DNA of 64,000 bases, taken from NCBI GenBank assembly GCA_945877405.1, contig CAMCSA010000004.1, positions 1 through 64,000 on the forward strand, written 5' to 3'. The notes beneath the pieces were generated by a model. It made no database searches and was not told the origin of the DNA. It worked only from the letters and a program-made list of their open reading frames with translations. This DNA comes from an uncultured Erysipelotrichaceae bacterium. Its GTDB lineage: Bacteria; Bacillota_I; Bacilli_A; Erysipelotrichales; Erysipelotrichaceae. The position numbers and the translations under genes are program-made. Positions 66-53,595 of this stretch are shown here, piece by piece; within the stretch, counting starts at the first letter, position 1; each line of letters opens with the position of its first letter.

Positions 66-1040
66 ATGGGAACACCAGATAAAATCTTCAAGGATTACTT
101 CAAGCAGCCTCATGTAGTGGCTTCCGTTGCTGAAATGGTACTGTTCAACCGAAATCAGTGCATTGATGAAAATGATGTCAGCATTCTTGACAGTGTTCAG
201 ACAAAGATTGATCGTACAGGTAACAGACATAAGGAACTCATCCGTGATGTTCACTCGCGTATTTTTCTGCGTGAGAATAACATCAACTGTGCCATTCATT
301 TCAATCTGGAGCTGATGGCATATCTGGATACTGCCATGGTAGTACGGACAATGGAATATGATATCAATACCCTGATTGTGCAGATCCGTCGCATCGCATC
401 GAGAATGGAACGGACAGGACAGGTTGAGAATGCAGAAACCGTAAACTTTCTGACACAGCTTCCTCATGTGCTCCAGCTTGAACCGTGTATTACGTGCGTG
501 GTAAACTTGAGTAAGCAGAAGTGGGATGGATATTTCAGCTGTGATGATCTGTATCATCCAAGGTTGAAAGCAGAAGATATCCATCCGACAACAAGCGGAA
601 ATCTTCTGGTCATCGACCCTCATACAATGAGCGATGAGCAGCTTGACCTGCTGATTCCAGAACTCAAGCTTCTGTTTCTGATTGTAAGATATCAGACACA
701 GGAGCACGCACAGCAGCTTCGTGAACTGCTGGAAAACTCTGAGCTGAGAATCGGTAAGGAGATGGCAAGAGTCATCTCTACCATTCTCAATCGTAAGATC
801 AAGATTCCAAAGAAGGGAGAAACAGTCATCATGTGTGAAGCAATGAGAGTCATTACAGAAAACATCAAGGCTGAAGTCAGAGCTGAAATCAAGAATGAAG
901 TTAAGGCTGAAGGTATTCGGATCGGCAGATTTGAGATTGTGGCAGAACTGTACCGCGATCATACATTAAGTGCAGAAAAGGCTGCTGCCAAGCTGAATAT
1001 GCCTGTTGAACAGTTTCTTGCAAGAATAAAGATGTGCTAG
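66..1040 (+). CDS. Rpn-family (PD-(D/E)XK) nuclease-like protein
   Basis: 324 aa. The start is fixed by AAAGGAGG just upstream of ATG 66. The N-terminus (MGTPDKIFKDYF), the RDV motif near residue 63 and the AMVVRTMEYD segment resemble the Rpn/PDDEXK putative transposase proteins that are common in gut Firmicutes. These are DNA endonucleases linked to recombination and phage defence. By my alignment to the usual ExQ motif the protein has ELM, so the last catalytic residue may be missing. The C-terminus is charged (EVRAEIKNEVKAEG) and ends in a short helix-turn-helix-like stretch (LSAEKAAAKLNMPVEQFL). A near-identical piece of its 3' region lies just downstream. The family call is moderately sure; activity is not established. 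Confidence 0.65.
   Translation: MGTPDKIFKDYFKQPHVVASVAEMVLFNRNQCIDENDVSILDSVQTKIDRTGNRHKELIRDVHSRIFLRENNINCAIHFNLELMAYLDTAMVVRTMEYDINTLIVQIRRIASRMERTGQVENAETVNFLTQLPHVLQLEPCITCVVNLSKQKWDGYFSCDDLYHPRLKAEDIHPTTSGNLLVIDPHTMSDEQLDLLIPELKLLFLIVRYQTQEHAQQLRELLENSELRIGKEMARVISTILNRKIKIPKKGETVIMCEAMRVITENIKAEVRAEIKNEVKAEGIRIGRFEIVAELYRDHTLSAEKAAAKLNMPVEQFLARIKMC
831..1040 (+). CDS. Possible intragenic C-terminal small protein of the Rpn gene
   Basis: An in-frame ATG at 831 (MCEAMRVI...) is preceded 11 bases upstream by AAGGGAG, a usable Shine-Dalgarno inside the coding sequence. It would give a 69-aa protein identical to the Rpn C-terminus. In E. coli, Rpn genes are known to encode such intragenic C-terminal antitoxins (RpnS). 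Here this is inference only, strengthened by the same arrangement at the second Rpn locus near 51.8 kb. Confidence 0.3.
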   Translation: MCEAMRVITENIKAEVRAEIKNEVKAEGIRIGRFEIVAELYRDHTLSAEKAAAKLNMPVEQFLARIKMC

Positions 1041-1085: not shown

Positions 1086-1356
1086 TCTGTTTCTGATTGT
1101 AAGATATCAGCCGCAGGAGCACGCACAGCAGCTTCGTGAACTGTTGGAAAACTCTGAGCTGAGAATCGGTAAGGAGATGGCAAGAGTCATCTCTACCATT
1201 CTCAATCGTAAGATCAAGATTCCAAAGAAGGGAGAAACAGTCATCATGTGTGAAGCAATGAGAGTCATTACAGAAAACATCAAGGCTGAAGTCAGAGCTG
1301 AAGTCAAAGATGAAGCTAAGGCTGAACATGTGTTTTGTGTTAACGATACCAGATGA
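1086..1356 (+). pseudogene. Duplicated 3' fragment of the Rpn gene
   Basis: Bases 1086-1326 repeat bases 671-911 at an exact offset of 415 with about seven mismatches, so this is a recent partial tandem copy of the upstream Rpn gene. It keeps the LFLIVRYQ start, the KKGETVIM motif and the internal AAGGGAG plus ATG (1246). It departs from the parent after the KAE codons and stops at 1356. The ORF track shows 70 aa from 1144. From ATG 1246 it would give a 36-aa protein. It lacks the nuclease core and is probably a remnant, or a detached C-terminal small protein gene. Confidence 0.6.
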
Positions 1357-51085: not shown

Positions 51086-51112
51086 CTGACGTACTCCCCA
51101 TGGGGTGAAGTC
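51086..51112 (+). other. Hairpin resembling the right-end antitoxin RNA 5' hairpin
   Basis: GACGTACTCCCCATGGGGTG followed by AAGTCC has the layout of the GACGTACCTC...GGTAAGTCC hairpin found twice at 63.6-64 kb. A terminator follows 31 bases later. No toxin-like ORF is opposite it. It may be chance or a decayed copy. Confidence 0.3.
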
Positions 51113-51142
51113 CAAGGTTTTCTGGTCTGATATTTGTGAATG

Positions 51143-51177
51143 ACATCTGATTTTTCAGGAATCAGATGTTTTTTTGT
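51143..51177 (+). terminator. Terminator after thi cluster
   Basis: ACATCTGATT/AATCAGATGT perfect 10-bp stem with a 7-base loop and a run of seven Ts. Confidence 0.88.
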
Positions 51178-51228
51178 ATGATCTGTGGAAAAACCGGTAA
51201 TAACAATATACGAAGGGAGGTATTTTAA

Positions 51229-51792
51229 ATGCCTGAAAAATCATCATTACAAAATCGCATTATGACACCACAGATTATCAAAAACTCGATTCATGAAGTA
51301 AGACCAGCAGATGTGACGATTGTACGTGTATTCTTTTCCAGACCACAAACAATTCAGAAACTGCTTCAGATCGTGATGGATGATGTGAGTCTGCAGGTTG
51401 TCAACTGTATGAATGGAAGAAAGTACCTGCGCAGTGATCATTCGGTTGGATCTGCGGATCTGATCGTTCATACAGCGGATGGAAGAATCTTTGATGTTGA
51501 ATTCAATGAATCTAACGCGCGTACTGCACATACACTGTATATCCATGTTGGAAACCTTGCGGATAACCTGTATGTGTCAGATAGTTTACTGCAGAAGGAA
51601 ATCAAGGCTATGTGCATTGTATTTGCCAGCTACGTTCCTTATGATTTGAAGGAGCCAGAACCGGTCAGAAACGGATTTGCGATCAGGTTTATTACGCCAG
51701 ACAGTAAAAATACAAATACTGGACTTGGAATTCTGTATCATGACCTTTATGAATCGGATCCAAAGAAGATGGTGATTCCAGAATTCAGATAA
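51229..51792 (+). CDS. Rpn-family nuclease, N-terminal part (gene split by in-frame stop)
   Basis: 187 aa after AAGGGAGG. It resembles the core of PD-(D/E)XK_2/Rpn proteins: the start PQIIKNSIHE.., metal-site Asp in VGSADLIVHTADGR and DVEFNESNARTAH as the E-x-N (normally E-x-Q/K) motif. It ends in TAA at 51790, but the frame stays open: R-A-M-E-L-K-M-T-E-G-G-R continues as the next ORF in the same frame. Without the stop the protein would be about 304 aa, the normal family length. It is therefore a truncated or pseudogene form, unless the stop is a sequencing error or is read through. Promoter not clear. Confidence 0.65.
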   Translation: MPEKSSLQNRIMTPQIIKNSIHEVRPADVTIVRVFFSRPQTIQKLLQIVMDDVSLQVVNCMNGRKYLRSDHSVGSADLIVHTADGRIFDVEFNESNARTAHTLYIHVGNLADNLYVSDSLLQKEIKAMCIVFASYVPYDLKEPEPVRNGFAIRFITPDSKNTNTGLGILYHDLYESDPKKMVIPEFR

Positions 51793-51798
51793 CGGGCA

Positions 51799-52143
51799 AT
51801 GGAACTCAAAATGACAGAAGGAGGCAGATTAGTTATGGAAATGACACTCAGAGATTACATCGATGAACTTTTAAAACAGAATGCAACAGTGGAAGAAGAA
51901 CGTATAGCGGATAGAAAGAGATTTGAAGAAGAACGTTCCATGGACAGAAAGAACTACGAAGAAATCAAAGAAAGATACGAAGCAGAAAGAAAGAGATTCG
52001 AAGCAGTAAGTAATCATCTGAATACTGTTGTTATCAATCTGATTGAGCTCGCCAAGACGGATAAACAGATTGTAAGTCGTCTTGGATTATCGCAGAACTT
52101 GCTGGATGAGATCAGAGAAGAACTGAAGTTATCACTCAGCTGA
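51799..52143 (+). CDS. Rpn C-terminal part, possible RpnS-like small protein (copy 1)
   Basis: Same frame as the preceding ORF, after one stop codon. It starts MELKMTEGGRLVMEMTL and runs 114 aa. Within it GAAGGAGGC (coding EGG) is a strong Shine-Dalgarno (AAGGAGG, 51818-51824) 10 bases before ATG 51835, giving a 102-aa protein. The middle is a charged coiled coil (DRKRFEEERSMDRKNYEE) and the C-terminus a compact helical pair (DKQIVSRLGLSQNLLDEIRE), typical of Rpn C-termini. This is where E. coli Rpn genes make intragenic RpnS antitoxins. Whether it is translated separately is inferred. Confidence 0.5.
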   Translation: MELKMTEGGRLVMEMTLRDYIDELLKQNATVEEERIADRKRFEEERSMDRKNYEEIKERYEAERKRFEAVSNHLNTVVINLIELAKTDKQIVSRLGLSQNLLDEIREELKLSLS

Positions 52144-52213
52144 TCATTCTAAAAATGGACTGATATACAGGGTTCATCACAGGCTGCTGGTCCCTGTATG
52201 CTATGAATAAGCA

Positions 52214-52537
52214 ATGGAACTCAAAATGACAGAAGGAGGCAGATACGTTATGGAAATGACACTTTTGGATTACATCCATGAACTTAAAAAGAAGAATGGA
52301 ATGATAGAAGAAGAACTTTCAGCGAATAGAAAGAGATTTGAAGAAGAACGTTCCATGGACAGAAAGAACTACGAAGAAATCAAAGAAAGATACGAAGCAG
52401 AAAGAAATAGCCTGAAAACGGTTGTTTTCAATCTGATTGAGCTCGCCAAGACGGATAAACAGATTGTAAGTCGTCTTGGATTATCGCAGAACTTGCTGGA
52501 TGAGATCAGAGAAGAACTGCAGTTGTCACTTAGCTGA
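52214..52537 (+). CDS. Tandem duplicate of the Rpn C-terminal ORF (copy 2)
   Basis: 107 aa, nearly identical to the previous ORF at both ends (same EGGR...M motif, SD AAGGAGG at 52233-52239 and ATG 52250, same RFEEERSMDRKNYEEIKERY coil and DKQIVSRLGLSQNLLDEIRE end) but 7 residues shorter in the coil. The duplication includes a few 3' flanking bases (TGATCATTCTAAAA after both stops). A 8-bp stem ATACAGGG/CCCTGTAT (52165-52199) separates the copies. It has no nuclease part. Expressed alone it could bind the Rpn C-terminus; unproven. Confidence 0.5.
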   Translation: MELKMTEGGRYVMEMTLLDYIHELKKKNGMIEEELSANRKRFEEERSMDRKNYEEIKERYEAERNSLKTVVFNLIELAKTDKQIVSRLGLSQNLLDEIREELQLSLS

Positions 52538-52588
52538 TCATTCTAAAATGAACTGGTATGAGGGAATATGCAGAACCTGTAAAAGGGC

Positions 52589-52616
52589 TTGCATATTTAT
52601 CGGACTATGATAAAAT
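52589..52616 (+). promoter_or_regulatory. pyr operon promoter
   Basis: TTGCAT, 16-base spacer, TGATAAAAT (extended -10). Predicted start near 52623. Confidence 0.7.
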
Positions 52617-52626
52617 CATTTGGAAG

Positions 52627-52670
52627 AAAAAAGGACATTGATTCAACATGTATTCAGTTTCCTTTTTTTT
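52627..52670 (+). promoter_or_regulatory. Possible attenuator in the pyr leader
   Basis: AAAAAAGGA pairs with TCCTTTTTT around a 24-base loop, and a run of eight Ts follows CC. The hairpin-plus-T-run has attenuator form, located between promoter and pyrB. The PyrR binding loop consensus is not visible. An in-frame upstream ATG (52648) runs through the T-run into pyrB. Confidence 0.4.
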
Positions 52671-52689
52671 GAAAAAACGGGAGGGCATT

Positions 52690-53595
52690 ATGAACAAGTA
52701 TTCACTTCTTTCCATGCACGACTTATCTGTAGAGGAAATCAATGCAATTCTCGACGATGCTTTATTATTTGATAATTCCTGTTCGGATTGGCAGTTACCT
52801 CAGTCAAAAGCTCTGGTCGCCAATCTTTTTTTTGAAGCTAGTACGAGAACACATTATTCATTTGAAAGTGCCGAACTGCAGCTTGGCTGTAAGGCGGTTG
52901 ATATTGCCACACAGGCATCATCCATTACAAAGGGTGAATCACTGTATGATACAATCCGTACCCTGGAAGAGGCTGGTTATGACATGTTTGTCATCCGCCA
53001 CAGTACAGAACGTTATTATGATGAACTGAAGACAATCGACAAACCGATTCTTAATGCTGGAGATGGTGCAGCGGATCACCCGACGCAGTGTCTTCTGGAC
53101 CTGCTTACAATGAAGCAGGAATTCGGCAGTTTTGAAGGACTGAAAGTCATGATTGCCGGTGATATTCTGCACAGTCGCGTAGCAGCATCTAATAAATATG
53201 CATTGGAACTGCTTGGTGCTGAAGTGCGTTTTGCCGGTCCTGCAGAGTGGGCAAGAGAAGGTTATCCGACTGTAGATTTTGATGAATACTTACCGGAAGC
53301 TGATGTTGTCATGATGCTGCGCATTCAAAAGGAAAGGGGAGCAACATTATCTGGTGTTGCGGATGGTGATTACCTGAGTACATACGGGCTGACAAAGGAA
53401 AGATACGCAAGAATGAAGAAAGGTGCCATTGTCATGCATCCAGCACCTGTCAACCGTGGTGTGGAAATCGACAGTGATCTTGTGGAAGCAGATCGTAGCA
53501 GAATCTTCAAGCAGATGGCCAATGGTGTTCTTGTGCGTAAGGCAGTCATCAAGCGTGGCTTTGGTTATGCACCATTTGGGAGCGAAAACAAATGA
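52690..53595 (+). CDS. pyrB: Aspartate carbamoyltransferase, catalytic chain
   Basis: 301 aa from ATG 52690 with GGGAGG upstream. It joins carbamoyl phosphate and aspartate. The carbamoyl-phosphate loop is FFEASTRTHYSFESA (S-T-R-T) and GDGAADHPTQCLLD supplies the HPTQ motif. No regulatory chain gene pyrI follows, so the enzyme is of the unregulated Bacillus type. It starts the UMP operon and overlaps pyrC by ATGA. Confidence 0.97.
   Translation: MNKYSLLSMHDLSVEEINAILDDALLFDNSCSDWQLPQSKALVANLFFEASTRTHYSFESAELQLGCKAVDIATQASSITKGESLYDTIRTLEEAGYDMFVIRHSTERYYDELKTIDKPILNAGDGAADHPTQCLLDLLTMKQEFGSFEGLKVMIAGDILHSRVAASNKYALELLGAEVRFAGPAEWAREGYPTVDFDEYLPEADVVMMLRIQKERGATLSGVADGDYLSTYGLTKERYARMKKGAIVMHPAPVNRGVEIDSDLVEADRSRIFKQMANGVLVRKAVIKRGFGYAPFGSENK

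Follow-up and report, generated by a model that had tools for sequence, protein, structure and literature searches.

Toxin-antitoxin pairs of the RpnL/RpnS type, in which the antitoxin is a gene within a gene, have been described by Zhong et al. (2023) for E. coli rpnA-E and rpnP2 and for C. difficile rpn (PMC10327210). The nested antitoxin was demonstrated in five genes of E. coli and in one of C. difficile, where mutating the ribosome-binding site (RBS) together with the internal start of rpn abolished RpnS (PMC10327210). The active-site residues of the RpnA nuclease are D63, E82, Q84, and R94; the Q84K change abolished all phenotypes, and Q84A and R94A each led to loss of recombination with toxicity retained (PMC5350276). 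YpaA, a free-standing RpnE_S of E. coli, is a tail-only copy that lies just 3' of its parent gene and starts at the Shine-Dalgarno (SD) sequence and ATG of the internal site. Internal initiation in a longer gene also produces the C-terminal subunit Cas11d from within cas10d (cited in PMC10327210), although Cas11d is a cooperating subunit rather than an inhibitor and belongs to an unrelated protein family.

The window analyzed here, a 64,000-nt stretch of a contig from an uncultured Erysipelotrichaceae bacterium, contains two loci that resemble these systems (Table 1). Like RpnL/RpnS, they combine a putative PD-(D/E)XK nuclease part with a C-terminal product that is predicted to arise from an in-frame RBS and start codon at the nuclease/tail junction, and with separate downstream copies of the tail. 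The E. coli SD consists of the Lys-Glu codons AAG GAG before Met244, as it does in many of the relatives studied here; the SD in our set is, however, often written in Glu-Gly-Gly codons. The locus at 51229-52537 also differs from RpnL/RpnS in that its tail is cut off by a stop codon (TAA 51790), and so is no longer nested, in that the active-site Gln is replaced, and in that its two tails differ by a 7-residue indel rather than by the variable four-residue repeats of the RpnS first helix. The tail-only copy resembles YpaA, but it stands behind a parent that is already split, and some parent sequence 5' of the SD was duplicated along with it. The most likely reading of these features, taken with the survey described below, is that genes throughout the family contain an internal site at which translation of a C-terminal, RpnS-type protein begins, and that in the window this tail has been split off and duplicated. 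Such a start is known in kind from Zhong et al. (2023); the new part is codon-level evidence for its breadth.

Table 1. Features of the two Rpn-like loci in the window
Feature	Position	Strand	Remarks
Nuclease-like N-terminal part, 187 aa, of broken Rpn/PDDEXK_2-type gene	51229..51792	+	Ends at in-frame TAA
In-frame TAA dividing the gene	51790..51792	+	42 nt 5' of ATG 51835
E-G-G codons, GAAGGAGGC	51817..51825	+	GGAGG core 51820-51824
Internal/free-standing start ATG and predicted RpnS-type tail, 102 aa	51835..52143	+	Coiled-coil helix, then HTH-like end
GGAGG core of duplicated tail	52235..52239	+	Read directly from sequence
Duplicated tail, 95 aa counted from its ATG	52250..52537	+	Without nuclease part ahead
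Second Rpn-like gene	66..1040	+	Relatives match PF04754 Transposase_31 (RpnA/YhgA family)
AAGGGAG (K-G-E codons) ahead of ATG 831	813..819	+	-8.7 kcal/mol
Predicted internal product (tail) of second gene	831..1040	+	SD and ATG 831
Copy of second gene's end, 97% identical	1096..1326	+	Different end (36 aa)

Comparison of the window proteins with Pfam, NCBIfam, and PADLOC assigned no family, and 51229-51789 and 66-1037, each taken alone, had no Pfam match. The profile of a 159-sequence family alignment matched the read-through product of the 51229 gene (E = 7e-21); relatives match PF12784 (L009 and L166) and PF04754 (L275). A PDB fold search with the AF2 model of the nuclease returned no significant match. 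The AF2 model of the tail, built from two sequences only, has one long and one short helix (pLDDT 85, pTM 0.45); the RpnS reference is a three-helix bundle (PDB 7th0), and Foldseek found no match for the predicted tail, the RpnA_S structure included. Searching phages for the motif DNA also gave no match.

Initiation signals in the window were as the preliminary description had reported them: GGAGG stands 10 nt ahead of both ATG 51835 and ATG 52250, and AAGGGAG precedes ATG 831 and, at 1228-1234, ATG 1246, with an 11-nt spacer. The first motif reads GAA GGA GGC AGA TTA GTT ATG. Anti-SD pairing energies, for which the canonical anti-SD was assumed because the assembly yielded no match to the 16S 3'-end pattern, are -12.2 kcal/mol at ATGs 51835 and 52250 and -8.7 kcal/mol at ATGs 831 and 1246. 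Only 5 of the window's 2136 plus-strand ATGs pair at -12.2 or better, and the first in-frame ATGs of the tail open reading frames (ORFs) show essentially no pairing (51799, -1.1; 52214, +0.4). The 51229 gene has a strong SD of its own (-13.0 kcal/mol at its start). A scan of 51100-52700 for sigma-70-like promoters found 0, where chance alone would give 4.6; nothing equivalent to the internal promoter known from E. coli rpn genes is therefore visible here. At both loci the two SD/ATG copies are, from their similarity, recent duplicates and not independent of each other, and the window alone is therefore weak evidence for an internal start.

To evaluate the signal across relatives, PF12784 genes were gathered from genomes of the family (273) and of the phylum (392); a further 80 named loci came from Lachnospiraceae, Oscillospiraceae, Negativicutes, and others. 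Because the full set of 181 PF12784 genes proved too diverse in one global alignment to reveal a single motif, the analysis was done by subfamily. The 113 distinct genes of the subfamily nearest to the window gene were aligned as proteins, with the Met column chosen regardless of SD; this column holds 109 Met, 2 Val, and 2 Leu. The mean anti-SD energy at the conserved Met is -10.4 kcal/mol, with 99% of genes at -7 or below, as against a mean of -2.6 kcal/mol and 6% for the remaining internal Mets of these genes (n = 901). Across 181 codon offsets (-120 to +60; mean -3.0, sd 1.6), the energy profile has its minimum at the conserved Met. The distance from SD to start shows peaks at 7-8 and 10-11 nt, which are spacings also seen at ordinary gene starts of these loci.

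The residues that carry this signal vary. Before the Met, the SD is spelled by EGG (GAAGGAGG), KEG or KED (AAGGAGG), RGG (AGAGGAGG), EKGV (AAAGGAGTG), QEG (CAGGAGG), and KEN (AAGGAG), and NEEEIN and unrelated residues of other subfamilies also keep an SD before ATG. Five genes without Met in the conserved column retain a start, GTG in L293 (from the window's own genome) and TTG in L224, or have an ATG two codons upstream instead (L082, L096, and L102). Judged by these spellings, the EGGRxxM motif is just one of several ways of writing the SD in residues. The proposal that embedded initiation signals explain how an intragenic antitoxin could be preserved in the family is supported, with the correction that conservation applies to the nucleotide signal and not to the residues EGGRxxM.

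Selection on the protein alone could in principle produce the same pattern, with the likeness to an SD being an accident of codon usage that prefers GGA. Synonymous shuffles with local codon usage gave a mean of -8.3 kcal/mol for the 113 genes, against the real -10.4, so that much of the signal could follow from the residues themselves, and Met/Cys are conserved across subfamilies. Because much of the signal is already dictated by EGG at the protein level, single-gene shuffle tests were mostly not significant (median p = 0.2), and significance was reached only in pooled and cluster-level tests. There, 103 of the 113 genes and 39 of 42 clusters at 50% identity were better than their own shuffle mean (Wilcoxon p = 4e-12), as were 15 of 15 genes and 11 of 11 clusters in a second subfamily, the relatives of the 66-1040 gene. 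Codon choice at the motif was also distinctive. The preliminary description had anticipated an excess of GGAGG at the EGG residues, and this was found: Gly-Gly is written GGAGG in 24 of 24 cases at the motif versus 95 of 440 elsewhere (p = 1e-15). The first motif Gly is GGA in 91 of 117 genes, where 41 are expected (z = 9.9), and Lys-Glu is written AAGGAG in 19 of 28 cases at the motif versus 107 of 953 elsewhere. Moreover, there is covariation between the third base of the E/K/Q codon preceding the motif Gly and the codon that follows (p = 4e-4, against p = 0.8 for the background): the base is mostly A if the codon after Gly begins with G and otherwise tends to G, so that AAGGAG or AGGAGG stays contiguous. 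Genes that lack Gly at the motif still have AAGGAGG, and tail-only copies keep the SD outside the nuclease frame. The shuffle, profile, GGAGG/AAGGAG, and covariation results together argue that selection is acting on the nucleotides of the SD and start, beyond the residues, and we regard conservation for the protein alone as very improbable.

It has been proposed that SD-like sequences within genes slow ribosomes, and the site lies at the boundary between nuclease domain and tail, where an elongation pause, rather than a start, might aid folding of the nuclease. A pause needs no start codon, yet one is kept at the right spacing in 109 of 113 genes and in all five variants; tail-only copies retain SD and ATG without an upstream nuclease, and initiation itself was shown in E. 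coli and C. difficile (PMC10327210). We therefore find the pause explanation hardly credible. Selection on both the SD and the start strongly implies, instead, that ribosomes initiate at this site.

The signal extends beyond the nearest subfamily. Among other PF12784 genes, with different residues, 90 of 138 have an internal ATG with an SD of -8 or below, against 33.9 expected (z = 13), and in an independent PF04754 sample 18 of 30 do, against 8.2 expected (z = 5.2). A strong internal SD and ATG is lacking in one-third of these additional PF12784 genes and in 12 of the 30 PF04754 picks; some of these 12 are neighboring ORFs or truncations. As a positive control, the experimentally known starts of E. 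coli rpnA and rpnE, both at Met244, scored -8.3 and -8.9, and the free-standing E. coli ypaA copy begins at the same AAGGAG..ATG.

Separate downstream copies of the tail were found at 16 of 122 loci, and in the window as the ORF at 52214-52537, which lies 3' of the first window tail. These tail-only copies stand right behind rpn genes (L085, L096, L157, L266, L280-L283, and others), two of them in some loci, and their homology begins near the SD; in its behavior, the 3' end of rpn resembles a portable cassette. For the eight loci named, the best-scoring start (dG -5.9 to -11.8) is either the homologous ATG or an ATG two codons upstream of it, and the window copy at 52250 is likewise a tail-only copy with the homologous start. 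A broader proposal, to which we give an even chance, is that in both Rpn branches the junction is a general dual-code site where the need for an SD dictates the residues (EGG, KEG, EKGV, EEI, and others being alternative spellings of a single RNA signal), that most lineages keep the built-in antitoxin start, and that tail plus SD form a portable cassette seeding free-standing antitoxin genes.

Whether the window copies still work is a separate matter. The frame of the 51229 gene is open again from the TAA through 52143, giving a read-through product of 304 residues, and distant relatives within the genus have D or K at the position of the TAA. The same TAA is present in a full-length paralogue (L002) on contig C8 of the same genome. 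The two genes are identical across most of the nuclease part (about 51350-51792), but their 5' ends and tails diverge, a pattern that looks like recent recombination or gene conversion. Directly 5' of the 51229 gene, a terminator-like hairpin with a T-run (51142-51170) separates it from its upstream neighbor, which we take to be thiD-like; the downstream neighbor of the tails is presumably pyrB-like.

Relatives carry the complete active-site set of D, E-x-Q, and R, which is incomplete in both window loci. With the RpnA residues as reference, the 51229 gene keeps D77 and E91, but its E-x-Q reads E-F-N (Q to N), and the conserved active-site Arg was not found in it; the 66-1040 gene reads ELM in place of ENQ. 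The TAA, the duplications, and the changed active site together suggest that the 51229 locus is either decaying or antitoxin-only. The system appears decayed or rearranged, with a nuclease that is probably impaired. The internal start of a putative C-terminal antitoxin put forward in the preliminary description is supported by the junction SD and start across relatives; in the window, a stop codon splits the tail from the toxin gene.

The arrangement could be dead altogether, consisting of a nonsense-mutated rpn and 3'-end fragments scattered by recombination, with the SD and ATG left over by descent. Besides the TAA and the E-F-N, the C8 copy also has a frameshift/TGA, locus 1 combines ELM with a truncated tail copy, and the two tails, which share 85% protein identity, have a pN/pS of 0.35-0.6, with too few changes to claim constraint. 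Against this, the reading frame of each tail is fully open, and the two share the same strong SD, with the strongest plausible start. We consider a dead locus a serious possibility, somewhat short of even, and one that concerns only whether the window copies work, leaving the family-level result untouched.

An internal start at the junction suggests the following scheme. In PF12784 and PF04754 Rpn genes, an SD written in the codons of the nuclease/tail junction, just 5' of a conserved start, would allow ribosomes to load at that point and translate only the tail, an RpnS-type protein; in the subfamily of the window gene, this signal is often spelled E-G-G-x-x-x-M. If E. coli and C. difficile are a guide, the tail would dimerize with the full-length nuclease and block its action; we infer this binding and antitoxin function from homology and analogy only. 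In the window, the tail would now be a free-standing cistron, separated by the TAA from the probably impaired nuclease and duplicated once. On codon-level evidence from about 130 genes of Erysipelotrichales, Lachnospiraceae, Oscillospiraceae, and Negativicutes, the hidden start would then be a conserved feature of the family, and an apparent protein motif would be largely a ribosome-binding site. RpnS would become predictable and annotatable from sequence, with the exact synonymous mutations named.

Tails and junctions differ among individual loci. The tail of L009 (G025, 1387-2535) contains a long run of four-residue MAxD repeats, like RpnS proteins of other bacteria, and that of L117 has four-residue EYAK repeats. 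The G336 copies (L134-L138) are typical PF12784 genes with no strong SD and ATG at the junction, and this lineage may use another start or lack RpnS. Three more near-identical PDDEXK_2-like genes are present in the window genome (G000) on contigs C18, C27, and C28 (L131-L133), and their junction reads AAG AAA GGA GAC AGG/AAG AAA GAA ATC ATG.
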